DNA from: Methylacidiphilum kamchatkense Kam1
Lineage (GTDB): Bacteria > Verrucomicrobiota > Verrucomicrobiia > Methylacidiphilales > Methylacidiphilaceae
NCBI RefSeq assembly: GCF_007475525.1
Contig: NZ_CP037899.1
Coordinates: forward strand, 248,001 to 312,000
DNA length: 64,000 nt
Direction: 5' to 3'
The position numbers and the translations under genes are program-made. Below are positions 2,725-29,751 of the stretch, piece by piece (within the stretch, counting starts at the first letter, position 1; every line of letters begins with the position of its first letter). The notes under the pieces were generated by a model. That model did not search any database, was not told the origin of the DNA, and saw only the letters and a list, made by a program, of their open reading frames with translations.

Positions 2725-4868
2725 GTGAATAGAAAGTTCTTAAGGAAACTCTACAAGGCGATTTTGATTTTAGCTGCAGGCCTATGGTTAAGCCTGGGGC
2801 AGAAGGGTTGGGCGATCATTCCAACGATTCCATCAACTGCATTGCCGGGAAATGGGAGTGTTGTGGCTGGCTCAGTGACAAGTTATACAGGTGGTACTTT
2901 AACAGTTAGTGGGAATACGGCTATCTTATGGGGAAATGGTACTTTAAATAATCTACCACAAGGTGGAAGTGTGCCTGGTTTTAATATTGGTTCTAGTGCC
3001 ACTTTAACTATAACTGCTAGCTCATTTTCTCCGGTTTTAAATGTGGATGTTACTGGGAATCCTTCCCAAATCCTGGGGACATTAACTGCTTCTGCTAACA
3101 CCCCGGTCTTTGTGGCTAATGGCAGTGGGATTATTGTTGGTTCGAGTGCAACCATAAATGCAGTAGGAGGTATTGGGCTTTTGGGGTATGATCTTTCTAG
3201 TACAGCTTCAACTTTTGCTGGGACGGTGAGTGTGGGGTCAACAACGACGGGTTCTTTTGTTAATATTCAGTCTGGGGCATCTATTAGTTCGGGGGCTTCC
3301 ATTCTTGTAGCAGCGCCTCAGGTGAATGTTGGGATTGCGCATCCTGGGTCTATAAGTTATGTTAACAATTTTTTTGTGCTTTCAGGATATTCCTTTACTT
3401 CTTTTGATGGAACTGCATTATTAGGGCAAAGTCCGATTGCTGAAAGCAGTGGGTCGATTACGATTAGTGGACCGAGCAGTGGTACTTTTAGTTTTGTAAT
3501 TGGGGATTTCGTTGAGTCTTCCGGGAGTATCACGACAAGTGGGAATCTCATACTTCCTGGTGGAAAAAATACACAATGGGGGACAGGGAATGGTATTAAT
3601 CTCGCATCGGGAGTGTTAACCAATAATGGGACTCTTGAGTTTACAGGTTCTTCTCTAACTGGTGGAGTGGTTACAGGGTCGCTGGTGAATAATGGGACTA
3701 TTTTGGCCAATGGAGCTGATTTGTATATTTCTGTTGGTGGGAGCATTACCAATAATTCAGGGGCGACTATAACAGGTATAACTAGTACTGGTAACTTTAA
3801 TGTGACCTTAAACGCAGGAGTGCATGGATCTCCGGGCAATGGGATAGGAGGGGGATTAACAACATGGGAACAATCAGCGGGTTTGATAGTGTTGCACTCA
3901 GTGCTTCCAATGTGAATAATTTAGGGCCATATCCTTTGGGGAGTATTTCGAATACTGGAACGATTAGCATTACAGATCCTTCTTCATCGACTGTAGCGAC
4001 ATCTGCATTGGATATCACGAGTAGTACTGGTTCGGTGTTTTTAAATGGGGTTGTTAGCATGGCCGATCCTAACGGAGTGACAAACGCATCCTTTACTACA
4101 AACACCCTTGGTAATTTCGGCATGAATATGAATGCTAACGTGACGGCAGCTACTGTTGATTTTGATGTGCATAATCTGTCGGGTTCTGGGGTATTGACGG
4201 CCAGTACAGTTGATTTGACAGCCACAGGTAATGTGCGGAATGTGGTTAGTCCAACTAATCCGCTTCTTAACGGCTTTACCATTGCTAATGGGCCGTTTGG
4301 TTCTACTGCGATTACGATCAATGCCGATGGGAATGCTCCGCAGATTATTAATCTGCATGTGAATGGGAATGCGGTGATTAATTCAGGAGATACCGGTACG
4401 TTTGTTAATTCAGTAACTAGTCCTACTACAGGTTTAATGAATCCGGTGCCTAATGCTAGGGGGAATCTGCTTGTCAATGCTACTGGCAATCTGACGGTAA
4501 ATGGGAGTGCTAGTATTCTTATCGGCGATTATGCCTTAAGTACGGATATTTTGGGGTTGTCTAAAGCGTTTGTCTTTCCCGGAGGGGTAGCGTTAAAGGC
4601 TGGAGGAGTCATGACGGTGAATGCTTCGATTGACAATGGGTATACGGCGGTTGCTGGGACAAACTTCCAGGGGGTATTTTTATCAGCACCATCGATATTC
4701 GTAAATGGGCCATTTGTGACAAGTGGCAATACGATTGTGCATGCTAGTGGGCCAATCAGCGCAGCAGTGTATGTGGCATCACCGGTTTCGCCATTTTTCC
4801 CAAGTGTTTACACGGCGGTGTTAAGTTCGACAAACGGACCGGTGGTAAGCGCGTTTCCATGGCAATAA
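2725..4868 (+). CDS. TpsA-type secreted exoprotein, copy 1, frameshifted
   Basis: This is a secreted beta-helix candidate exported by the TpsB pore. The start is GTG 2725, chosen because a near-perfect Shine-Dalgarno (AAAGGAGG) lies about 10 bases upstream and the same start recurs in the paralogues. A signal sequence ends near 'GLWLSLGQKGWA' (about residue 30). The TPS secretion domain follows, with 'NPSQILGTL' and 'FVANGSGIIVGSSATI' standing where filamentous haemagglutinins carry NPNG-type motifs. The remainder is Gly/Ser/Thr/Asn-rich short-period repeat, and there is no anchor at the C-terminus (...VVSAFPWQ). The frame breaks at a G5 run (3850-3854) where copies 2 and 4 have G6. Restoring one G gives 714 residues, compact for this family. 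The second part begins near 3864 in the other frame. Confidence 0.8.
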
Positions 4869-5362: not shown

Positions 5363-7518
5363 GTGAATAGAAAGTTCTTAAGGAAACTCTACAAGGCGAT
5401 TTTGATTTTAGCTGCAGGCCTATGGTTAAGCCTGGGGCAAAAGGGTTGGGCGATAATTCCAACGATTCCATCAACTGCATTGCCGGGAAATGGGAATGTT
5501 GTGGCTGGCTCAGTGACAAGTTATACAGGTGGTACTTTAACAGTTAGTGGGAATACGGCTATCTTATGGGGAAATGGTACTTTAAATAATCTACCACAAG
5601 GTGGAAGTGTGCCTGGTTTTAATATTGGTTCTGGTGCCACTTTAACTATAACTGCTAGCTCAATTTCTCCGGTTTTAAATGTGGATGTTACTGGGAATCC
5701 TTCCCAAATCCTGGGGACATTAAATGCTTCTTTAAACACCCTGGTCTTTGTGGCTAATGGCAGTGGGATTATTGTCGGTTCACATGCATCGATAACTGCC
5801 CCAGCAGGTATAGGGCTTTTGGGGTATGGTCTTTCTGGTCAAGCTTCAAGTTTTACTGGAACGGTGAGTGTGGGGTCAACAACGACGGGTTCTTTTGTCA
5901 CTATCCAGTCTGGGGCAACTATAAATACTTCGGCTTTGTCTGGGGCTTCTATTCTGGTAGCAGCGCCTCAGGTGAATATTGGGATTGCTACTAGTGGATC
6001 TATAACTCCAAATGTATTTGGAGTTTTCGATGTGCTTTCAGGCTATCAATTTACTGGATATACCCCATTTACAGGGCTTTTTGCTACGGGTCCCTCACCG
6101 ATTGCTGGCAGCGCTGGGTCGATTACGATTAGTGGGCCCAGTAGTGGTGCTGCGTTTGGCTTTACAAGTGGGGATTTTGTTTTTTCCTCTGGTAGTATTA
6201 CAACAAACGGCAATCTCATACTTCCTGGTGGAACAAATACACAATGGGGGACAGGGAATGGTATTAATCTCGCATCGGGAGTGTTAACCAATAATGGGAC
6301 TCTTGAGTTTACAGCTTCTTCTCTAACTGGTGGAGCGGATACAGGGTCGCTGGTGAATAATGGGACTATTTTGGCCCCTGGAGGTAATTTGTATATTTCA
6401 GTTGGTGGGAGCATTACCAATAATCCAGGGGCGACTATAACAGATATAACTAGTACTGGTAACTTTAATGTGACCTTAAACGCAGGAGTGCTTGGACTTC
6501 CGGGCAATGGGATAGGAGGGGGGATTAACAACATGGGGACGATTAGTGGGTTTAACAATGTTATACTGCTTGCTTCTAATGTGAATAATTTAGGGCCATA
6601 TCCTTTGGGGAGTATTTCGAATACTGGAACGATTAATATTACCGATGCTCATGGAGTGAGTGCAGGATCACTTTTGGATATCGCAAGTAGGACTGGTTCC
6701 GTATATTTAAATGGGGTTGTAAATATAGCTGATCCTAAGGGGTGGCATCCGCTGAGTTTGCTACAAGGCTGAGTGGTGGAAATTTCGTTATGAATGCTAA
6801 CGTAACGGCAGTCAATGCCTCTTATGATGTGGGCAATCTGACGGGTTCTGGGGTATTGACGGCTAGTAGAGTTCTTTTAGATATAACAGGAAACGTACGG
6901 AACGTGGTCAGTTCAACCAATCCGCTTCTTAACGGCTTTACCATTGCTAATGGGCCATTTGGTTCCACTGCGATTACGATCAATGCCGATGGGAATGCTC
7001 CGCAGATTATTAATCTGCATGTGAATGGGAATGCGGTGATTAATTCAGGAGATACCAGTACGTTTGTTAATTCAGTATCTCTTCCTGCCAAAGGTTTAAC
7101 GAATGCGGTGCCCAATGCTGGGGGGAATCTGCTCGTCAATGCTACTGGCAATCTGACGGTAAATCCTGGAATTGCTGCCCATCATGACTTGAGCCGTGAT
7201 ATTTTAGGGTTGTCTGCGTTTGTGTTTCCGGGAGGGGTAGCGTTAAAGGCTGGAGGAGTCATGACGGTGAATGCTTCGATTGACAATGGGTATACGGCGG
7301 TTGCTGGGCCAAACTTCCAGGGGGTGTTTTTATCAGCACCATCGATATTCGTAAATGGGCCATTTGTGACGGATGGCAATACGATTGTGCATGCTAGTGG
7401 GCCAATCAGTGCAGCGGTGTATGTGGCATCACCGGTTTCGCCATTTTTCCCAAGTGTTTACACGGCGGTGTTAAGTACGAAAAACGGGCCGGTGGTAAGC
7501 GCGTTTCCTTGGAAATAA
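5363..7518 (+). CDS. TpsA-type secreted exoprotein, copy 2, frameshifted
   Basis: A close paralogue of copy 1, with the same GTG start, the same strong ribosome site and a near-identical first ~150 residues covering the signal sequence and TPS domain. Residues ~180-280 diverge from copy 1 in sequence and length (extra NTSALSG and TPNVFGVF segments), so this part of the helix is the variable one. The frame breaks at a G4 run (6739-6742) where copy 4 has G5. Adding one G gives 718 residues, and the second part overlaps from about 6742 to the TAA at 7516-7518. From ~6220 to the end it is almost identical to copy 4. The role is export through the neighbouring TpsB; the ligand or function outside the cell is unknown. 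Confidence 0.8.
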
Positions 7519-7790: not shown

Positions 7791-8215
7791 CCTTTAAGGC
7801 TAATTGAAGCAAAATCCTTTTCTAGTTTGATCACTTCTTAGTAAAAAAAATATATATTCTTGATTTTTTGGTTGACAAATGGAAAGGAACATTAGAAAAA
7901 AATCGTATAGAAGACTAAAATAAATTCAAGATGGAATACTATACAGGAAATCGAAAGTTCTCAAAAAAACTCTATAGGACGGTTTTACTTTTAGCTGCTG
8001 GGCTATGGTTAAGTCTGGGACAGAAAGGCTGGGCGATTCCTATGCCTAGTGCATTGCCGGGAAATGGACAAGTTGTGACTGGAACAGTTTCATCATATGC
8101 TATTACAGGGACAAATACGGCGACTTTAACAGTAAATAACAGTAAATAGACTTTTTAAGACTTATTGAAACGAAACTTTTTTCTGGTTTGACCCCTTTTT
8201 AATAAAAAGAAAAGT
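7790..8215. repeat. Duplicated ~55-bp leader segments flanking the tpsA stub
   Basis: About 55 bases at 7795-7850 (GGCTAATTGAAGCAAAATCC...) recur in diverged form at about 8157-8212 (GACTTATTGAAACGAAACTT...). One copy precedes the stub gene and the other precedes the intact tpsA at 8281. This points to recombination between leaders as the route by which the stub lost its body. Confidence 0.55.
7931..8149 (+). pseudogene. Decayed 5' stub of a tpsA gene, copy 3
   Basis: The 72 codons match the signal sequence and the first part of the TPS domain of the other copies ('LAAGLWLSLGQKGWAIP', 'ALPGNGQVV'), then stop at TAG 8147-8149. Aligned to copy 1, the stretch that is the ribosome site GGAGG in copy 1 reads GATGG here, and the original GTG start reads AGG. 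The apparent ATG at 7931 is therefore a by-product of ribosome-site decay. The stub lacks everything needed for secretion and is probably not functional. Confidence 0.75.
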
Positions 8216-8280: not shown

Positions 8281-10623
8281 ATGAAAAATACGAACCGGCC
8301 GTTAGAAAGTTCCGTTCTCTTTTTGATTGCGTTTGGATTAATTTTTACAAGCCTTCGTTCTTCTTTTGCCCTGCCTGGATTTGGTCAGCTTCCTGGTCAT
8401 GGGGTCGTAGCCAATGGTGTAAGTGGAGTAAGTTATAACTTAACAGCTCCTAACCAGGCGACTTTAACGGTATCAAGTCCAACGGCGATTCTCTGGCAAA
8501 GTTCAGGAGGTACTTTAAATGTGACTGGTTCTGGTCCGGGATTTAACGTGGGATCCGGTGCCAAGTTTATTATTTCTACAACAAATACCAATTACAATCC
8601 AGTGCTGAACGTAGACACTACTGGTAACCCTTCGATAATCTTTGGAATGGTCCAATCAACCCCTACTGCACCTTTTATTTTAGCAAATGGCAGTGGGATT
8701 GTAGTTGGTTCTTCTGGAATTATTATTTCTCCTGCGGGGGTAGGACTTATTGGCTATAATGTACCTCTTTCAGTGGCTCAAAATTTTACTGGGTATGGGG
8801 TTGGGATAGTCCCTGGATTGACGGGCAGTTATGTAACGATTCAGACAGGAGCCTCGATTACTTATGGACCCACAAAAATTCCTCCTATTACTTCAGGAAG
8901 CCCAGTCGGAAGCGCCCTTTTAGTGACAGCTCCGCAGATTACTGTGGGCATTGCTACTTCCACCTCGTTTAACGGTGGATCTGCCAATCATTTCCTTGAT
9001 CTTCTTTCTGGATACCAGTTTCTCTTTTCGTTTCGCGCCCTTGGAGACAATAATGGGTTTCGGATAGCACCCACACCTATTTCCGGCAGTAGCGGGTCAA
9101 TCACTATGAACGGCCCTTCTTCTGGCAGCCCTTTTTCGTTCCCGACCTATTCCTACTTGCTTTCGTCTGGAAACATCACCACAAGCGGCAATCTGGTTTT
9201 GCCGGGTGGTCCTTTTCTTCAATGGGGAACGGGAAGCAAGGAGGTATGGCAAGGTTGGCTATATAACTATGGGAACCTTGCGTTTGCACAGACTTTGGAT
9301 CCTCAAACGCTTTCTACTCGTGGGTCTTTATTGAACTATGGATCCATTTTTTCCTATCCTACCGCCCCATTTTATAATGGACAAGGTCAGTTGCTACTTA
9401 AGCTGGGAACCACTCCAACCTTGGTTCTTTGGGTCAATGGGTCAATCATTAACCAAGCTGGGGCAGTGATGAACGCGACTTCGACGATAAGTGGAAGTTC
9501 GACAAAAGGTAGTATTGATTTGTGGGCACAGCAAGGAGCGCTTGTCAATTATGGGTTGATGCAGGGTTATGATTTTATCAATCTTTTTGCTCAGAACCCC
9601 AATCAGTTGAACTCTCAGTTTCCACTGGGCAGCGTGTTTAGTAATGGGACCTTGACGATTTCAAGTCCAACGGCTTTCACAGATACTTTTGTTAATCCGG
9701 GTAATGGAGCAATTACTCTTTTTGCTCCCTTATATCCGCATCAGCTCACAACCACTCCGAACATTAATCTTTGGATAAGCAGTGCGACGGGCAATGTGTA
9801 TTTGCCTAGTGGATCGATTCAAATAAGCGATCCCAATGGGATTCATGCGGCAGCCTTATCTGCTTCGAAATCTGGTGGAGTGTTTCTTTTAGACCTGCCA
9901 TTTACTTCGCAGCTTATTAGTTTTAAAGGAGGAGGATTAACTGGTTCTGGAATAATCACTACGAACCAATTTCATCTGAGTGCTACGGGAGACGTTCGGA
10001 ACGTGGTTAGTCCAACTAATCCGCTTCTTAACGGCTTTACCATTGCTAATGGGCCATTTGGTTCCACTGCGATTACGATCAATGCCGATGGGATAGCTCC
10101 GCAGATTATTAACCTGCACGTGAATGGGAATGCAGTGATTGATTCAGCAGGTACCAGTACGTTTCTTAATGAAATTACTCTTCCATTCAGTTTAAAATTC
10201 TTAACTAATATGGTGCCTAATAAGGATGGGAATCTACTCGTCAATGCTACTGGCAATCTGACGGTAAATCCTGGTACACCTACTAATTTTGCCTTGAGCA
10301 GGGATGTTTTAGGGTTGCCTGCATTTGTGTTTCCGGGAGGGGTAGCGTTGAAGGCAGGGGGAATCATCACGGTGAATACTACGATTGACAATGGGTATAC
10401 AGCGGTTGCTGGGCCAAACTTCCAGGGGGTATTTTTATCGGCTCCACAGATATTTGTAAACGCCCCGTTTGTGACAGATGGCAACACGATTGTGCATGCT
10501 AGTGAGCCAATCAGTGCTTTAGTGTATGTGGCAAAACCTTTTACGACCATTACGCCAAATATCTACACGGCGGTATTAAGTACGACAAACGGACCGGTGG
10601 TAAGCGCATTCCCATGGCAATAA
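8281..10623 (+). CDS. TpsA-type secreted exoprotein, intact diverged copy
   Basis: The only uninterrupted exoprotein gene of the array (780 residues). ATG 8281 follows a good ribosome site (GAAAGGGGAC). The signal peptide (MKNTNRPLESSVLFLIAFG...) differs from those of the other copies. The TPS domain keeps 'NPSIIFGMV' and 'ILANGSGIVVGSSG'. The middle is diverged and longer than in copies 1, 2 and 4. The last ~200 residues return to near-identity with the others ('NPLLNGFTIANGPFGSTAIT', 'FVFPGGVALKAGG', 'GYTAVAGPNFQGVFLSAP'). Known family behaviour: the TPS domain directs Sec-dependent export, then passage through TpsB. Receptor or adhesive function cannot be read from the sequence. If the breaks in the other copies are real, this would be the only working substrate. 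Confidence 0.85.
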   Translation: MKNTNRPLESSVLFLIAFGLIFTSLRSSFALPGFGQLPGHGVVANGVSGVSYNLTAPNQATLTVSSPTAILWQSSGGTLNVTGSGPGFNVGSGAKFIISTTNTNYNPVLNVDTTGNPSIIFGMVQSTPTAPFILANGSGIVVGSSGIIISPAGVGLIGYNVPLSVAQNFTGYGVGIVPGLTGSYVTIQTGASITYGPTKIPPITSGSPVGSALLVTAPQITVGIATSTSFNGGSANHFLDLLSGYQFLFSFRALGDNNGFRIAPTPISGSSGSITMNGPSSGSPFSFPTYSYLLSSGNITTSGNLVLPGGPFLQWGTGSKEVWQGWLYNYGNLAFAQTLDPQTLSTRGSLLNYGSIFSYPTAPFYNGQGQLLLKLGTTPTLVLWVNGSIINQAGAVMNATSTISGSSTKGSIDLWAQQGALVNYGLMQGYDFINLFAQNPNQLNSQFPLGSVFSNGTLTISSPTAFTDTFVNPGNGAITLFAPLYPHQLTTTPNINLWISSATGNVYLPSGSIQISDPNGIHAAALSASKSGGVFLLDLPFTSQLISFKGGGLTGSGIITTNQFHLSATGDVRNVVSPTNPLLNGFTIANGPFGSTAITINADGIAPQIINLHVNGNAVIDSAGTSTFLNEITLPFSLKFLTNMVPNKDGNLLVNATGNLTVNPGTPTNFALSRDVLGLPAFVFPGGVALKAGGIITVNTTIDNGYTAVAGPNFQGVFLSAPQIFVNAPFVTDGNTIVHASEPISALVYVAKPFTTITPNIYTAVLSTTNGPVVSAFPWQ

Positions 10624-10876: not shown

Positions 10877-13011
10877 GTGAATAGAAAGTTCTTAAAAAAA
10901 CTCTATAAGGTGGTTTTAATTTTAGCTGCAGGCCTATGGTTAAGCCTGGGGCAGAAGGGTTGGGCGATAATTCCAACGATTCCATCAACTGCATTGCCGG
11001 GAAATGGGAATGTTGTGGCTGGCTCAGTGACAAGTTATACAGGTGGTACTTTAACAGTTAGTGGGAATACGGCTATCTTATGGGGAAATGGTACTTTAAA
11101 TAATCTACCACAAGGTGGAAGTGTGCCTGGTTTTAATATTGGTTCTAGTGCCACTTTAAATATAATTACTACGACACTTACACCTTCTCCGGTTTTAAAT
11201 GTGGATGTTACTGGGAATCCTTCCCAAATCCTGGGGACATTAAATGCTGCTGTTCTCACCCCGGTCTTTGTGGCTAATGGCAGTGGGATTATTGTTGGTC
11301 CGCATGCAAGCATAATTGCACCAGGAGGTATTGGGCTTTTGGGGTATGATTTTTCTAGTACAGCTTCAACTTTTGCTGGGACGGTGAGTGTGGGGTCAAC
11401 AACGACGGGTTCTTTTGTTAATATTCAGTCTGGGGCATCTATTAGTTCGGGGGCTTCCATTCTTGTAGCAGCGCCTCAGGTGAATGTTGGGATTGCGCAT
11501 CCTGGGTCTATAAGTTATGTTAACAATTTTTTTGTGCTTTCAGGATATTCCTTTACTTCTTTTGATGGAACTGCATTATTAGGGCAAAGTCCGATTGCTG
11601 AAAGCAGTGGGTCGATTACGATTAGTGGACCGAGCAGTGGTACTTTTAGTTTTGTAATTGGGGATTTCGTTGAGTCTTCCGGGAGTATCACGACAAGTGG
11701 GAATCTCATACTTCCTGGTGGAACAAATACACAATGGGGGACAGGGAATAGTTCTAATCTCGCATCGGGAGTGTTAACCAATAATGGGACTCTTGGGTTT
11801 ACAGCTTCTTCTCTAACTGGTGGAGCGGATACAGGGTCGCTGGTGAATAATGGGACTATTTTGGCCCCTGGAGGTAATTTGTATATTTCAGTTGGTGGAG
11901 CATTACCAATAATCCAGGGGCGACTATAACAGGTATAACTAGTACTGGTAACTTTAATGTGACCTTAAACGCAGGAGTGCTTGGACTTCCGGGCAATGGG
12001 ATAGGAGGGGGGATTAACAACATGGGGACGATTAGTGGGTTTAACAATGTTATACTGCTTGCTTCTAATGTGAATAATTTAGGGCCATATCCTTTGGGGA
12101 GTATTTCGAATACTGGAACGATTAATATTACCGATGCTCATGGAGTGAGTGCAGGATCACTTTTGGATATCGCAAGTAGGACTGGTTCCGTATATTTAAA
12201 TGGGGTTGTAAATATAGCTGATCCTAAGGGGGTGGCATCCGCTGAGTTTGCTACAAGGCTGAGTGGTGGAAATTTCGTTATGAATGCTAACGTAACGGCA
12301 GTCAATGCCTCTTATGATGTGGGCAATCTGACGGGTTCTGGGGTATTGACGGCTAGTAGAGTTCTTTTAGATATAACAGGAAACGTACGGAACGTGGTCA
12401 GTTCAACCAATCCGCTTCTTAACGGCTTTACCATTGCTAATGGGCCATTTGGTTCCACTGCGATTACGATCAATGCCGATGGGAATGCTCCGCAGATTAT
12501 TAATCTGCATGTGAATGGGAATGCGGTGATTAATTCAGGAGATACCAGTACGTTTGTTAATTCAGTATCTCTTCCTGCCAAAGGTTTAACGAATGCGGTG
12601 CCCAATGCTGGGGGGAATCTGCTCGTCAATGCTACTGGCAATCTGACGGTAAATCCTGGAATTGCTGCCCATCATGACTTGAGCCGTGATATTTTAGGGT
12701 TGTCTGCGTTTGTGTTTCCGGGAGGGGTAGCGTTAAAGGCTGGAGGAGTCATGACGGTGAATGCTTCGATTGACAATGGGTATACGGCGGTTGCTGGGCC
12801 AAACTTCCAGGGGGTGTTTTTATCAGCACCATCGATATTCGTAAATGGGCCATTTGTGACGGATGGCAATACGATTGTGCATGCTAGTGGGCCAATCAGT
12901 GCAGCGGTGTATGTGGCATCACCGGTTTCGCCATTTTTCCCAAGTGTTTACACGGCGGTGTTAAGTTCGACAAACGGGCCGGTGGTTAGCGCCTTTCCAT
13001 GGCAGCAATAG
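10877..13011 (+). CDS. TpsA-type secreted exoprotein, copy 4, frameshifted and mosaic
   Basis: Same GTG start context as copies 1 and 2, but the ribosome site is weaker (AAGAGGAAAA instead of AAAGGAGGAAAA). The frame breaks at 11897-11898, where GGTGGAGC replaces GGTGGGAGC of copy 2. Restoring one G gives 711 residues; the rest lies in the other frame to TAG 13009-13011. The gene is a mosaic. About 11356-11710 is essentially identical to copy 1 (3195-3550), while about 11720 to the end is near-identical to copy 2 (6230 onward). The shared hairpin terminator is absent after this copy. The function is as for the other TpsA exoproteins. Confidence 0.8.
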
Positions 13012-15547: not shown

Positions 15548-18500
15548 ATGCCAAATTTAGTAATAGTCATTGGGATGCATCGTTCAGGCAGCAGTGCATT
15601 GATGCGGGCTTTGAGTTATTTAGGGGTGGAATTAGGCGAAGAGCTGCTTGAGGCCAGGCCGGATAATCCGAGGGGTTTTTGGGAAGACAAGGAACTCCTA
15701 GCGATCAACGAGTTATTGCTTCAGGCCAGTGGGCTGCGTTGGGACAGTTGTCAGCATCCTAGGGTGGATGTATTCAGGCCGGAGGTGAGGCGGCTTTGGG
15801 AGAGGGCGATAGAGAGTTTCAGAGGGAAGTTGAGCTGTGGGGATAGTTTTGGGATGAAAGACTCGAGGATGATTCGGCTGTTGGAATTTTGGCATAGTGT
15901 TTTTCAGGAGCTTGGAGTCAGTCCTAGTTACGTACTGTCTCTGCGGGATCCGTTATCGGTAGCGGAATCGTTGTTTAGGCGGAATGGGTTTTCGCAGGCA
16001 AAATCGTTTTGTTTATGGCTCTCTCATTATCTTTTGCCATGGGGATGGTATGCACCGTTTTTGAAAGTTGTGGTGAGTTATGACCAGTTGATGAGTCAAC
16101 CGGGGGTGGAGTTAGAGCGGGTGGCTAGAAGGCTGGGTTTAAGGGTAGAGCCTGGGGTTGTGGAGAGGATAAAGGAAGAGTTTTTGGATCCGGCTCTGAG
16201 GCATGCGTGTTATTCGGAGGAGCGGCTAAGGGATCAGCTGAGTGGGTTTAATTTTTTGTATACGGTATGGGAAGCATTTGAGGATTTGGCGTATGGAGGG
16301 CAGGAAGAAGAAGCCAAGGCAAAGATTGAGAAGCTTTCTAGAGGGAGTTTTTCCTTGAATGAGCTCTTTGGTTTTGTGGACCAATACGAAAAGCTCGTAG
16401 AAGGGATAACCAGGGAGAAAAAAGTTTTAGAAACAAAACTTAGCAAGCTCTATACCCAACAAACACACATACAACAAGTAGTTGATGGACTGTCAGAATA
16501 TATCGCAAAACAGGCGACAAAACTATATCCCAAGCAGTTGGAAGAACAAAAACAGCTGATTTTTTTTGGATCAAAAAAGAAACCGCAACCACAAGATCCG
16601 ATTGTGGATCAGGCACGATTTGTTCTTGAACAAGGGATGTTTGATTTTGGTTATTACTGGAGCATTTATCTTGATGTGCGTAAAGATAGGAAAGATCCCC
16701 TTCTTCATTTTCTCCAGTATGGGTGGAAGGAAAGGCGCAATCCGCATCCGCTGTTTGATACGGATTATTATTTGAGAGAGAACGAGCAATTGGAAAAGGA
16801 AGGGATTAATCCGTTGGTGCATTTTTTAGAATGGGGATGGCGAGAGAAGAGGAATCCGCATCCGCTGTTTGATCTGAATTATTATTTAGGGCAGTGTCCA
16901 CAGCTAGAAGCGGAGGGGCTAAATCCTTTAGTTTATTATCTGAAAGGAGGATGGGAAGGAGGAAAGAGTCCGCACATACTTTTTGATTCGAGTTATTATT
17001 TGGAGCAGAATCCCGAAGTAGCGCAGGAAGGGATCAATCCGTTAGTGCATTTTTTAGAGCGGGGATGGCGAGAGAAGAGGAACCCGCATCCGCTGTTTGA
17101 TCTAGGTTATTATTTAGGGCAGTGTCCACAGCTAGAAGCGGAGGGGCTAAATCCTTTGGTTCATTTTGTGAAGTATGGGTGGAAGGAAAGGCGCAATCCG
17201 CATCCGCTGTTTGATACGGATTATTATTTGAGAGAGAACGAGCAGTTGGAAAAGGAAGGGATTAATCCGTTGGTGCATTTTTTAGAATGGGGATGGCGAG
17301 AGAAGAGGAATCCGCATCCGCTGTTTGATCTGAATTATTATTTAGGGCAGTGTCCACAGCTAGAAGCGGAGGGGCTAAATCCTTTGGTTTATTATCTGAA
17401 AGGAGGATGGGAAGGAGGAAAGAGTCCGCACATACTTTTTGATTCGAGTTATTATTTGGAGCAGAATCCCGAAGTAGCGCAGGAAGGGATCAATCCGTTG
17501 GTGCATTTTTTAGAGCGGGGATGGCGAGAGAAGAGGAACCCGCATCCGCTGTTTGATCTAGGTTATTATTTAGGGCAGTGTCCACAGCTAGAAGCGGAGG
17601 GGCTAAATCCTTTGGTTCATTTTGTGAAGTATGGGTGGAAGGAAAGGCGCAATCCGCATCCGCTGTTTGATGTTCAGTTGTATGAAGAAACACATCCAGA
17701 AACAGTAAGGACAAATGCTTTTCTTCATTATCTGGTTCATAAGCCAGAGGACTGGCAGGGGTATTGGGTGACGGAGGAGTTTGAAAAGAGGATTGCTGCG
17801 TTAGCTCTAAGTTGGAAAGATAAGAAAAAAGGTTCGCTTTTCCTGTTCATCGATCATGTTTTGGGAGGTGGAGCAAATTTTTATCGTCAACAATGGATCC
17901 ATCAGTTAGAAAAAGAAAATCAGTTAATTTTTCTTTTCTATTATAATTTTTTTAAAAAAGGCTATTATGTACGGATTTCAGGTTGGGAAAATCAGCTCTT
18001 ATTAAGCTGTAGCTGCCCAGATTCTTTTTTTTCTCATATAGGGGCCCTGTGTGAGGATTTTGATGGTCTAGAAATTATTCCTAATGCATTGGTTTCATTC
18101 CCTGAGCCTTTATCGATCCTTGAGTGGTGTTTGCAGCTAAAAAAACAGAAGGCAATCAAGATTATCGTTCCTATTCATGATTACTTCTGTATTTGTCCTT
18201 CTTACAATCTTTTGAACGATAAAGACCAGTTCTGTGGCATCCCGACAATTGAAGAATGCAGGCGTTGTCTTGTGGCTATTGATAAAGATGAAACTTATCC
18301 TAAAAATCTGAATATCGATTTATGGAGGGAAAAATGGCAAGATTTTTTGGAACATGCTGATGAAATTCTCTGTTTTTCTGAATCCTCGCTTTCCCTGCTC
18401 TTCAAAGCCTATCCAACTTTAGAGAAAAACCAGATTATTCTCAAACCCCATTCGATTGGGTCATTTCGCAAAGCAAAGCTAAGGGCTCCACAGCCAAATG

Positions 18501-18931
18501 AGGAAGTGATTGTGGGCATTGTAGGACACATCGATACGAAGGCTAAAGGTAAAGAACTGATTGGAGAGATGATTCAAACGATTCAGCTTGAAAAGTGGCC
18601 GATAAAGCTAGTGGTTATAGGAACGGTGGGTGATCCGGAGCTAGAAAAAAAACTGCATGTGTATGGTCCCTATAGGAAAGAAGAATTAGTATCTTTGATT
18701 GAATCTTCCATGGTAAATCTTTGTTTCTTGCCCTCGATTTGGCCAGAAACCTTTTCGTATGTTACTGAAGAGTTGATGGCAATGGGAGTTCCTTTAGCTG
18801 TATTCGATCTAGGAGCGCAGGCGGAAAAAGTCAGGCGGTATAAATGGGGTCATGTCATTTCTCACATTGATCCTCGGATTGCCTGTAAGGAAATTTGTGA
18901 GTTTGCTTTGCGGTTAGCGGAGCTAAAATAA
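15548..18931 (+). CDS. Trifunctional-looking protein: sulfotransferase domain, NPDV-type repeats, GT4-like glycosyltransferase
   Basis: 1127 residues. Residues 1-~250 form a P-loop sulfotransferase-family domain with the PAPS-binding signature GMHRSGSSALMRAL at 9-22. A coiled-coil linker spans ~275-345. About ten repeats of 38 residues cover ~358-730; four of them are duplicated as a block. Residues ~757-1127 look like a GT-B (GT4-like) glycosyltransferase, with 'VGIVGHIDTKAKGKELI' and the donor-site region 'PSIWPETFSYVTEELMAMG'. Known families suggest sulfation and glycosyl transfer to a surface glycan. Codon use is uneven: the sulfotransferase and repeat parts are strongly G-rich (GGG, AGG, TTG, GAG), while the C-terminal part is ordinary AT-rich. 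The protein may be a chimaera. Confidence 0.75.
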   Translation: MPNLVIVIGMHRSGSSALMRALSYLGVELGEELLEARPDNPRGFWEDKELLAINELLLQASGLRWDSCQHPRVDVFRPEVRRLWERAIESFRGKLSCGDSFGMKDSRMIRLLEFWHSVFQELGVSPSYVLSLRDPLSVAESLFRRNGFSQAKSFCLWLSHYLLPWGWYAPFLKVVVSYDQLMSQPGVELERVARRLGLRVEPGVVERIKEEFLDPALRHACYSEERLRDQLSGFNFLYTVWEAFEDLAYGGQEEEAKAKIEKLSRGSFSLNELFGFVDQYEKLVEGITREKKVLETKLSKLYTQQTHIQQVVDGLSEYIAKQATKLYPKQLEEQKQLIFFGSKKKPQPQDPIVDQARFVLEQGMFDFGYYWSIYLDVRKDRKDPLLHFLQYGWKERRNPHPLFDTDYYLRENEQLEKEGINPLVHFLEWGWREKRNPHPLFDLNYYLGQCPQLEAEGLNPLVYYLKGGWEGGKSPHILFDSSYYLEQNPEVAQEGINPLVHFLERGWREKRNPHPLFDLGYYLGQCPQLEAEGLNPLVHFVKYGWKERRNPHPLFDTDYYLRENEQLEKEGINPLVHFLEWGWREKRNPHPLFDLNYYLGQCPQLEAEGLNPLVYYLKGGWEGGKSPHILFDSSYYLEQNPEVAQEGINPLVHFLERGWREKRNPHPLFDLGYYLGQCPQLEAEGLNPLVHFVKYGWKERRNPHPLFDVQLYEETHPETVRTNAFLHYLVHKPEDWQGYWVTEEFEKRIAALALSWKDKKKGSLFLFIDHVLGGGANFYRQQWIHQLEKENQLIFLFYYNFFKKGYYVRISGWENQLLLSCSCPDSFFSHIGALCEDFDGLEIIPNALVSFPEPLSILEWCLQLKKQKAIKIIVPIHDYFCICPSYNLLNDKDQFCGIPTIEECRRCLVAIDKDETYPKNLNIDLWREKWQDFLEHADEILCFSESSLSLLFKAYPTLEKNQIILKPHSIGSFRKAKLRAPQPNEEVIVGIVGHIDTKAKGKELIGEMIQTIQLEKWPIKLVVIGTVGDPELEKKLHVYGPYRKEELVSLIESSMVNLCFLPSIWPETFSYVTEELMAMGVPLAVFDLGAQAEKVRRYKWGHVISHIDPRIACKEICEFALRLAELK
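16721..17671 (+). repeat. 456-bp in-frame tandem duplication
   Basis: The block 16721-17176 is repeated nearly identically at 17177-17632, and a third copy starts at 17633 for ~39 bases. The period of 456 bases equals 152 residues, exactly four 38-residue protein repeats, so frame is preserved. The near-identity indicates a recent event or ongoing homogenisation, and copy number may differ between strains. Confidence 0.9.
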
Positions 18932-24522: not shown

Positions 24523-26977
24523 ATGTCCCCAATCGGTAAAATTTGTTTTTCTCTTGAAGAGCCTAAAAGGCGGTTATTTTTTTCGAAAGAAAGAAAAATT
24601 TGTTTTCGAGGCTATTTTTTCGACTCTTTTGGAAGGAAAGCCAAGCAGGTTATTCTCCAATACAAAAATGAAAGGATATTAGCCGATTCGCAGCATAGGG
24701 AAGATATCCAAAGTAGGTATGCGAGATCAAATATCCAGATTGAAAAAGAAGTTGGGTTTGAAGGCTGGATCGAATTAAGCCGCGGATTAAAAGAAATTGA
24801 CATCTTAGCTGAACTCTCTGGTGGTCAAAGACTCCGGTTAGCTCGCTATTATATCGTCGTTTATGGCGCATCAAAACCCCACTCAAAGATAAAGCAGCAA
24901 GCAAATCCAGTTTGCCTACCGCCCGCTTACTTTTGTCTTGATGCACCACAAGCAGAAGAGCCGATAATAACAGAAGATATTTTTCTTGAAGTTAGGGGTT
25001 GGGTTTTTGATAAAGAAGGCAATCCTCCAAGTTCTATAATAGTAAAAAACTCTACTCGGGTATTCCCCTGCAAAGCAATCGCTCGCAGCGATGTGAAAGC
25101 AGATCATCCTATTCTAAAAGATATCTGGTGCGGCTTTTTGGCCAGGATACCCTTGGAAGAAAATCTCTTTGAATACATTGTGGAAGCAGAGTTTCCCAGT
25201 GGAAAGAAGCTTGAGCTAGGCAAGTTTTTTGCCCGTTCTTTTAATAGAGAAGAAAGAGTGAAATGGGATAGGGATCGCTACAGGGAATGGTTTGCCTTGT
25301 ATGGTCAGTTAATGGGGAGGGAGGAGGAGCTATTGAGGGGGCGTCTTAGCGGGTTTGCCTACAAGCCATTCTTTTCGATAATAATGGGGGTGGGGTTAGG
25401 GGACAGGCTAGAGGGGGTCTTAGCGAGTCTCCGGTCGGTAGTAGGGCAGTGGTATGAGCGGTGGGAAGTGCTTTTGGTATTGTATGGGGGCAGGAAACTG
25501 GCCATAGAGGAGCTTAGGGGTGTAGGTGGGGAGGATAAGCTAAGGATCATAGAGTTGAGCTATCCAGAGAAGGTGAAGGCAAAGGAGGCTGGGTTAAGGG
25601 AAGCTTGTGGGGAGTACTGCATGGTATTAGACAGTGGGGAGGAGCTAGTAGCGCATGCGTTGTACGTATTTGTGGAGGCGCTTCAGGGGGATAAGGCGTT
25701 GGATTTACTGTTTGGGGATGAGGATAGGCGGAGTGGTGGGGGGCAGGTGTACAGTCCGGTATTCAAGCCTGGGTTTAATTATGATTTATTGAGGTCGGTG
25801 AACTATTTAGGGCGGCCTGTGGTTTTTAGGAAGCAGAAGGCGATGGAGGTGGGAGGGTTTGACGAGGGGTTGGAGGGGGCAGAGGAGTGGGATCTTTATT
25901 TAAGGATGACGGTGGGGAAGGTGGATGGGCGTGGGGTTTGTCATCTGCCTTATGTGCTGTGTCATCGAGGAGGGGAAGCGGAAGCTGGAGGGGGTGGAGG
26001 GAGTGAGGGGGTGGAGAAGGAGGTGGTGTGGAGGGATTGTAAGCGACGAGGGGTAGGAGTGGAAGGGATAGAGAGGATGAGGGGAGGGTGGCGGATACGG
26101 TATGGGGTAGGTGAGGCGAAGCCATTGGTGAGCATAGTGATGCCTTCGAAGTGTCAGCTTGCTTATCTTCGGCCTTGTGTAGAGAGTGTAATGAGCAAGA
26201 CGAGTTATGATCGCTACGAGTTATTGTTGGTGGTGAATGAGAAGCGACTGAGGAATGCGGAGGTGGAGCGGTATTTGGAGGGGTTGAGTGGGGTGGGGGG
26301 AAGGTGCGACTGGTGGTGTATCCGGATGAGCCATTTAACTATGCGAAGATTAACAATGCGGCGGTGAGGGAGGCGCGGGGGAGGTATTGGCGTTGTTGAA
26401 TGATGATTTAGAAGTGATTACAGGGGATTGGCTTGAGGAGATGGTAGGGCATGCGATGCGAGCTGAGGTGGGGGCGGTAGGGGCGATGCTGTACTATCCG
26501 GATGGGACGATACAGCATGCTGGGGTGATATTGGCGGAGCGGGGGATTCCGGATCATAGGCTTAGGAATGTGAGGAAGGAGGAGGCAGCGGAGGGGGGCT
26601 ATCTTTGGTTTGAGCAGAATTTGAGTGCGGTGACGGCGGCTTGTGTTGTGATGCGGAAGGAGTGTTTTGAGGAGGTGGGGGGCTTTGACGAGAGTTATGC
26701 GATAGATTTAAACGACATAGACTTATGTTTACGATTGAGGCAGAGGGGCTATTTGATAGTGTGGACGCCCTTTGCTGAGTTTTATCATTACGAGTCGGTA
26801 TCGAAGATGGCGGACATAGCTGAGCAGTATGCCCTGTGGTCGGAAGAAAACTCGAAGTTTATAAAAAAATGGCGGCCTGTTTTCCCGCTAGATCCTTATT
26901 ACAACCCCAATTTGTCTTTCAAGCCTCCCTACTATAAACTCTCTTTCCCACCCAGGGTTAAATCTCTTATTAGTTGA
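24523..26977 (+). CDS. Two GWxFD-type modules plus tandem GT2 glycosyltransferase, two frameshifts
   Basis: Restoring one G in each of two runs, 26295-26300 (G6; the twin copy has G7) and 26377-26381 (G5; the twin has G6), gives one 818-residue protein. The modules lie at ~1-118 and ~135-245. The first GT-A domain (~280-515) is degenerate: the DSDD motif of the paralogue at 29775 reads 'MVLDSGEE' here. The second (~535-790) keeps 'ALLNDDLEVITGDWLEEM' and 'AIDLNDIDLCLRLRQRG'. From 25303 to 26960 the DNA is ~99% identical to 28055-29713 and strongly G-rich, unlike the AT-rich 5' part. The probable role is a surface-glycan glycosyltransferase. Confidence 0.75.
25303..26960 (+). repeat. 1.66-kb near-identical direct repeat, copy A
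   Basis: Matches 28055-29713, with only G-run length changes and a few substitutions (for example GCC/GTC near 25360/28112). It covers the C-terminal 550 residues of the glycosyltransferase. The sequence is G-rich and C-poor on the coding strand. Recombination between the copies would delete about 2.75 kb. Confidence 0.92.
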
Positions 26978-27292: not shown

Positions 27293-29751
27293 ATGAATCA
27301 AAACCGAAGCTTTTTCTTTTCGATCGAATCCCCAAAGCATCGATTTCATGTCGTAAGAGAAAGAAAAATCTGCTTTAGCGGCTATTTTTTTGATGGTTAT
27401 GGTAGAAAAGCTAATCAGATCCTTATTAAGTGGAATGATAAACAAGTTATTGCAAATAGAGTAGACAGGGGGGATGTCCAAAGACTCTATGCTCAGAAAG
27501 GGATGGTTGTAGAACAGGCGGTGGGTTTTGAAAGCTGCATTGAATTGAGCCGTGGCTTAAAAGAAGTTGAAGTGATTGCTGAACTCTCGAATGGAGAGAA
27601 AATAAAGCTAAAGAAATTTATTCTCTACGTTTGGTCGAAGAAGTATTGCTTAGACCCGCTCTATAATAATAAGCACCAATTAGTTGGATATTATAATATT
27701 GAGAAGCCTCTTGAAAAAGAAGTCGTTTCGACCCAGCACTATATCGAGATAAGTGGCTATGTCGTAGACAAGGATGGCTATCCACCTCGAGTAGTCCAGA
27801 TCAAAACACCTACTAGAAAATATCCCTGCCAGCAGATTTGCCGACAGGGGATTCAGAAAGATTACCCCTTTGTCAAAGACACTCGTTGTGGGTTTGCAGG
27901 CTATGCTTTTTTAGAAGATATACCAAAGCAATACAGTATAGAAGTAGAGTTTCTGTCTGGACAAGTGGCTGAATTAGCAACGTTCTTTGCAAGCCTAAAA
28001 GTTCAGGAGGACAGAAGAGAAAAAGAGCTCTACCAAAAATGGTTCAGCTGCTACGGTCAGTTAATGGGGAGGGAGGAGGAGCTATTGAGGGGGCGTCTTA
28101 GCGGGTTTGTCTACAAGCCATTCTTTTCGATAATAATGGGGGTGGGGTTAGGGGACAGGCTAGAGGGGGTCTTAGCGAGTCTCCGGTCGGTAGTAGGGCA
28201 GTGGTATGAGCGGTGGGAAGTGCTTTTGGTATTGTATGGGGGCAGGAAACTGGCCATAGAGGAGCTTAGGGGTGTAGGTGGGGAGGATAAGCTAAGGATC
28301 ATAGAGTTGAGCTATCCAGAGAAGGTGAAGGCAAAGGAGGCTGGGTTAAGGGAAGCTTGTGGGGAGTACTGCATGGTATTAGACAGTGGGGAGGAGCTAG
28401 TAGCGCATGCGTTGTACGTATTTGTGGAGGCGCTTCAGGGGGATAAGGCGTTGGATTTACTGTTTGGGGATGAGGATAGGCGGAGTGATGGGGGCAGGTG
28501 TACAGTCCGGTATTCAAGCCTGGGTTTAATTATGATTTATTGAGGTCGGTGAACTATTTAGGGCGGCCTGTGGTTTTTAGGAAGCAGAAGGCGATGGAGG
28601 TGGGAGGGTTTGACGAGGGGTTGGAGGGGGCAGAGGAGTGGGATCTTTATTTAAGGATGACGGTGGGGAAGGTGGATGGGCGTGGGGTTTGTCATCTGCC
28701 TTATGTGCTGTGTCATCGAGGAGGGGAAGCGGAAGCTGGAGGGGGGGTAGGGAGTGAGGGGGTGGAGAAGGAGGTGGTGTGGAGGGATTGTAAGCGACGA
28801 GGGGTAGGAGTGGAAGGGATAGAGAGGATGAGGGGAGGGTGGCGGATACGGTATGGGGTAGGTGAGGCGAAGCCATTGGTGAGCATAGTGATGCCTTCGA
28901 AGTGTCAGCTTGCTTATCTTCGGCCTTGTGTAGAGAGTGTAATGAGCAAGACGAGTTATGATCGCTACGAGTTATTGTTGGTGGTGAATGAGAAGCGACT
29001 GAGGAATGCGGAGGTGGAGCGGTATTTGGAGGGGTTGAGTGGGGTGGGGGGGAAGGTGCGACTGGTGGTGTATCCGGATGAGCCATTTAACTATGCGAAG
29101 ATTAACAATGCGGCGGTGAGGGAGGCGCGGGGGGAGGTATTGGCGTTGTTGAATGATGATTTAGAAGTGATTACAGGGGATTGGCTTGAGGAGATGGTAG
29201 GGCATGCGATGCGAGCTGAGGTGGGGGCGGTAGGGGCGATGCTGTACTATCCGGATGGGACGATACAGCATGCTGGGGTGATATTGGCGGAGCGGGGGAT
29301 TCCGGATCATAGGCTTAGGAATGTGAGGAAGGAGGAGGCAGCGGAGGGGGGCTATCTTTGGTTTGAGCAGAATTTGAGTGCGGTGACGGCGGCTTGTGTT
29401 GTGATGCGGAAGGAGTGTTTTGAGGAGGTGGGGGGCTTTGACGAGAGTTATGCGATAGATTTAAACGACATAGACTTATGTTTACGATTGAGGCAGAGGG
29501 GCTATTTGATAGTGTGGACGCCCTTTGCTGAGTTTTATCATTACGAGTCGGTATCGAAGATGGCGGACATAGCTGAGCAGTATGCCCTGTGGTCGGAAGA
29601 AAACTCGAAGTTTATAAAAAAATGGCGGCCTGTTTTCCCGCTAGATCCTTATTACAACCCCAATTTGTCTTTCAAGCCTCCCTACTATAAACTCTCTTTC
29701 CCACCCAGGGTTACTCTTCTTCCTGAGGAGTGGAGATCTGAGAGGTTGTAA
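27293..29751 (+). CDS. Two GWxFD-type modules plus tandem GT2 glycosyltransferase, frameshifted twin
   Basis: The frame breaks once, at G5 28490-28494, where the twin has G6. With one G restored the protein is 819 residues. The modules at ~1-118 ('ICFSGYFFDGYGRKANQILI', 'GDVQRLYAQ') and ~140-245 ('IEISGYVVDKDGYPP', 'CGFAGYAFL') differ from those of the twin. The glycosyltransferase half is almost identical to the twin, including the degenerate first GT domain and the intact NDD motif in the second. The last residues differ (RVTLLPEEWRSERL), marking the edge of the duplicated block. The role is presumably a glycosyltransferase with a different N-terminal targeting or binding part. Confidence 0.75.
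28055..29713 (+). repeat. 1.66-kb near-identical direct repeat, copy B
   Basis: Partner of 25303-26960. G runs are G7 at 29046-29052 and G6 at 29129-29134, where copy A is one shorter, and G5 at 28490-28494, where copy A is one longer. Confidence 0.92.

Follow-up and report, generated by a model that had tools for sequence, protein, structure and literature searches.

Background

The closest described counterparts of the locus studied here are found in Neisseria meningitidis and Haemophilus influenzae. At the meningococcal tpsB-tpsA locus, downstream tpsC cassettes recombine with tpsA, for which gene conversion has been proposed, and tpsA/tpsC recombination is rare in vivo (PMC3848433). The variable part exchanged there is the 3' end, with a growth-inhibition module and an immunity gene, and the tpsC cassettes lack an N-terminus (PMC3848433). 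Gene conversion is also the inferred route by which the hmw1A and hmw2A loci of H. influenzae exchange their diverse binding domain; these loci belong to two separate operons and are marked by HMW1C glycosylation and heptamer-repeat phase variation (PMC8262952, PMC4849778). A literature search found no mention of two-partner secretion together with Methylacidiphilum.

The genome of Methylacidiphilum kamchatkense Kam1 (2,202,032 bp) was obtained by PacBio RS sequencing and HGAP3 assembly at 489x coverage, with reads of 14.7 kb on average (PMC6688271). In this study, a window of 64,000 nt (positions 248001-312000 of this genome) was analyzed, and all coordinates below are counted from its first letter. 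A first-pass annotation made from the letters alone had described the fourth of several tandem tpsA copies as a mosaic of copies 1 and 2, produced by gene conversion or recombination among array members. The Kam1 array resembles hmw1A/hmw2A, which encode paralogous two-partner-secretion adhesins, in that the swapped part lies inside more conserved ends, and differs from them in that its copies stand in one tandem array and the organism is a thermoacidophilic methanotroph from hot springs. Compared with the meningococcal locus, it consists of full-length tandem copies with conserved ends, including the 3' end, and a variable middle, and each tpsA copy has its own start codon, N-terminus and upstream region. 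Neither an immunity gene nor a variable C-terminus resembling a toxin was recognized in the array.

Organization of the array and assignment of TpsA and TpsB

The array spans about 10.3 kb on the forward strand and comprises one tpsB-like transporter gene (718-2549), which is frameshifted by 1 nt and is an open frame in relatives, followed by four tpsA-like exoprotein genes, namely copy 1 (2725-4868, GTG start), copy 2 (5363-7518), copy 3 (8281-10623) and copy 4 (10877-13011). Copy 3, with 780 aa, is the only one of the four that is open. The 5'-end remnant of an additional tpsA copy (7845-8082) was detected between copies 2 and 3. A genome search returned four matching places, every one of which was inside the array. 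Copies 1, 2 and 4 were of one type in the four-copy alignment. Copy 3 has two parts: its first ~1,700 nt (two thirds) are only about 40-60% identical to copies 1, 2 and 4 in most alignment windows, and its last ~640 nt are 82-84% identical to them (82-85% together with the terminator region). Farther along the window, an array of 114-nt (38-residue) repeats was found at 16695-17678 within a large gene (15548-18931), and this repeat array contains a duplicated block, offset by 456 nt, that is 98.8% identical.

Copy 1 matched TIGR01901 (E 5e-8, 32.7 bits vs a cut-off of 29.1), copies 2-4 scored just or well below the cut-off, and a Pfam search of the tpsA copies gave no match. POTRA and POTRA_2 matches of the tpsB-like gene were weak and below cut-off; tpsB adjoins tpsA in strains G2 and V4 as well. 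A structure model of copy 3 was all-beta (pLDDT 61, pTM 0.69), and its fold matches included EtpA, HxuA, FHA and HMW1, although these were weak and none had E <= 0.001. Based on the TIGR01901 match of copy 1, the position of tpsB beside tpsA in G2 and V4 and the all-beta model, the locus appears two-partner-secretion-like. The N-terminus matches the filamentous-haemagglutinin secretion domain, for copy 1 above the cut-off. The likeness to this FHA/TpsA domain (TIGR01901; solved examples include 1rwr, 4i84 and 2odl) lies in the N-terminal match and the beta-rich model, whereas the motif in Kam1 is weak and diverged, with NPS.I and ANGSGI instead of NPNL and NPNGI.

Mosaic structure of copy 4

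Up to position 11351, copy 4 shows mixed affinity together with private sites, and its 5' part (10896-11351) matches neither copy 1 nor copy 2 consistently. It is followed by tract 1 (11352-11723), which aligned to copy 1 at 3194-3565 with zero differences over 372 nt (372/372). The match to copy 1 reported in the first-pass annotation was thus borne out, with its start corrected to 11352 and its end to 11723. All of the 117 consecutive informative columns in tract 1 (11357-11701) were copy 1-like, and the claim that copies 1 and 2 clearly differ in this region agrees with their identity of 76.6%. A copy-4-specific spacer (11724-11796) comes next and carries four bases absent from both copies. 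Tract 2 (11797-12966) differs from copy 2 (6307-7476) by one substitution and two 1-nt indels over its 1,170 nt, with about 171 informative columns for copy 2 and one (11933) for copy 1; the identity of copies 1 and 2 to each other is about 79-91% there. The match to copy 2 had been placed from 11720 onward; it is indeed near-identical, but it begins only at 11797, after the four private bases. The two indels in tract 2 are private 1-nt deletions, one per copy, at 11896 in copy 4 and at 6738 in copy 2. The 3' end of copy 4 is an exact match to neither copy, and its downstream flank is its own, being unrelated to those of copies 1 and 2 (43% identity). Both tracts therefore have the structure expected of gene conversion tracts, that is, near-identical inner segments flanked on either side by diverged sequence specific to the copy. 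The proposal that the exchanged segment is the variable part of the gene held for tract 1, which falls in the most diverged gene part among copies 1, 2 and 4.

In a 3SEQ-style maximum-descent test with 5,000 permutations, the observed value was 152 and the permutation maximum 75. Differences inside and beside the tracts were also compared by Fisher tests, the flanks in both comparisons being picked after inspection, with 0/372 vs 25/258 for tract 1 (p ~1e-10) and 1/1168 vs 12/118 for tract 2 (p ~3e-12). A uniform identity profile across the copies is excluded by the permutation and Fisher tests, and both switches are far beyond chance; together with the exact tracts, these tests strongly support recombination among array members. 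Since copy-4-specific sequence stands before, between and after the tracts, there are two separate conversion-like tracts, independent of each other, rather than one crossover, and the single boundary assumed at first was not upheld. Both exchanges are recent, as almost no differences have arisen since.

These features also bear on the origin of copy 4 as a whole. Unequal crossing-over could have made it in one step as a hybrid of copies 1 and 2, and the head-to-tail arrangement together with the remnant at 7845-8082 implies that deletions or duplications do occur in the array. However, copy 4 does not match the supposed parents in its 5' 475 nt, in the 73-nt spacer or at its 3' end, and its downstream flank is unrelated, so that one simple crossover is already ruled out by the non-matching parts, above all the spacer, and we regard such an origin as extremely unlikely. 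An assembly artefact, in which HGAP put reads of one copy into another and created a false mosaic, is very unlikely. The assembly is PacBio-only, its authors suspect one error of the kind, a frameshift in hyhL (PMC6688271), and 1-nt G-run deletions in near-identical tracts are typical of such errors; on the other hand, coverage is deep and the mean read is longer than the array, so that reads span it (PMC6688271), each tract is flanked on both sides by copy-specific sequence, the four spacer bases occur in no other copy, and comparable intragenic mosaics were found in other genomes. Import of a tract from outside the family was rejected, since no relative closer than the array itself turned up when 288 genomes of the phylum were searched at the protein level. 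Convincing relatives among these genomes were confined to Methylacidiphilum and its sister genus, with a single other match at E 8e-4.

Ordinary homologous recombination (gene conversion) among array members is thus very probably the explanation of the mosaic. Through short double crossovers or heteroduplex repair between array members, copies 1 and 4 would recently have come to share a 372-nt piece, and copies 2 and 4 one of ~1.17 kb; the nearness and similarity of the copies may have favored such recombination.

Direction of transfer

Copy 4 had at first been taken as the recipient of both pieces, a view that did not stand, because outgroup states make the reverse at least as likely. If copy 4 was the donor, copies 1 and 2 would once have been alike, and copy 4 would have overwritten copy 1 along tract 1 and copy 2 along tract 2, for which two events are enough. 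At tract 1 sites where copies 1 and 4 agree against copy 2, Yel was copy 2-like at 39/61 (39:22) and SolV at 43/73 (43:30); at tract 2 sites where copies 2 and 4 agree against copy 1, Yel was copy 1-like at 90/128 (90:38) and SolV at 75/127 (75:52). At face value, the outgroups favor the copy 2 form as the older one in tract 1 and the copy 1 form as the older one in tract 2. In the 73-nt spacer, the outgroups were copy 4-like where scored (4:0 and 3:0). Copies 1 and 2, moreover, are 98.6% identical to each other over 10877-11160 and over the spacer, and have a downstream flank in common. Nevertheless, the site counts are skewed only moderately, copy 2 is nearer to copy 4 than to copy 1 upstream of the start, and the Yel and SolV copies are not proven orthologues of copy 1 or copy 2, for which reason we leave the direction, with copy 4 as donor or as recipient, at about even odds.

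Partial homogenization in related genomes

Related tpsA genes were compared in Methylacidiphilum sp. Yel (G001), G2 (G002), V4 (G003) and SolV (G004) and in m7, m8, m9 and m11 (G007, G008, G009 and G011) of the sister genus in the same family, with residues numbered on copy 3 and orthologue pairs picked by middle-region similarity. For G2/V4, the paralogue tree was rejected at residues 151-495 (AU p <= 1e-4), and at residues 651-780 the orthologue tree was rejected (AU p 0.013) and within-genome pairs were supported. For m9/m11, the paralogue grouping was rejected at residues 151-330 (AU 0.001), and at residues 496-650 the orthologue grouping was rejected (AU 0.004), again with support for within-genome pairs. 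In both pairs, the middle of the gene tracks orthology and a portion of the 3' third tracks the genome. Homogenization of part of the gene therefore recurs within the genomes of the family; it is not universal, since orthology is kept at the extreme 3' end in m7/m8. In Yel, the copy-3 gene is interrupted by a stretch of N right at the junction, which makes this strain a weak witness for 3' homogenization. Kam1 stands out in that the transferred sequence there also includes part of the variable middle.

The syntenic place in SolV (L033:6742-9673) holds one open tpsA and the broken start of a copy-3-like gene, and no match to tpsB was found anywhere in SolV, where the array seems to have collapsed.

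A second case of tandem-gene homogenization in the window is that of halves of two neighboring glycosyltransferase genes (25300-26960 and 28052-29713). Their identity to each other is 99.5% in Kam1 and 97.7% in SolV, but between Kam1 and SolV it is only ~91%. The second glycosyltransferase gene has a frameshift near 28492.

Frameshifts in G runs

The first-pass annotation implied working exoproteins, but copies 1, 2 and 4 and tpsB are frameshifted as sequenced, each through the loss of a single nucleotide, private to that gene, from a G run. In tpsB, the run at 2181-2186 is G6 and that of Yel and G2 is G7, the gene being a single open frame of 606-622 aa in relatives. The sites lacking one G relative to relatives or sister copies are 3850-3854 in copy 1, 6739-6742 in copy 2 (deletion at 6738/6739) and 11897-11898 in copy 4 (deletion at 11896/11897); the tpsA copies of G2, V4 and SolV are mostly open. 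The frameshift rate was estimated from a comparison with SolV along the rest of the window, which revealed one such break in about 45 genes; the 20 kb upstream showed no synteny with SolV. The deletions as a whole are either PacBio-only consensus errors, as suspected for hyhL, or real decay or slippage, and those in tract 2 of copies 2 and 4, being private to one copy each, either arose after the exchange or reflect sequencing errors.

Programmed antigenic variation, with one expressed copy, silent cassettes and G-run slippage as an on/off switch, would account for the shared segment within the variable middle of the gene and for the excess of frameshifted genes at the locus (4/5, against 1/~45 for the other genes in the window; Fisher p ~1e-4). 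We consider it improbable, as the G runs, at G2 to G6, are short, the copies of relatives are mostly open, each copy is served by its own upstream region, and a start codon and N-terminus per copy argue against truncated silent cassettes. It is decidedly improbable, too, that the array is a contingency locus in which tpsA conversion would reshuffle the exoprotein middle and G-run slippage would toggle tpsB and each tpsA copy; if true, one array in an environmental methanotroph would vary a surface protein by both routes.

Conclusions

Gene conversion among array members, which we prefer as the explanation of copy 4, is a type of event that is already known for related surface proteins in other bacteria, and the tpsA family is a new member of that kind. 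The genes would encode secreted surface proteins rich in beta structure, and mixing of the middle segment may alter their exposed surface. The mosaic is a further example of intragenic conversion between paralogous secreted-protein genes, here from thermoacidophilic Verrucomicrobia, in which host immune pressure is not expected. Homogenization of part of the gene has occurred repeatedly, in several lineages of a single family, and caution is needed in Methylacidiphilaceae, in which orthology is not assignable from whole tpsA genes.
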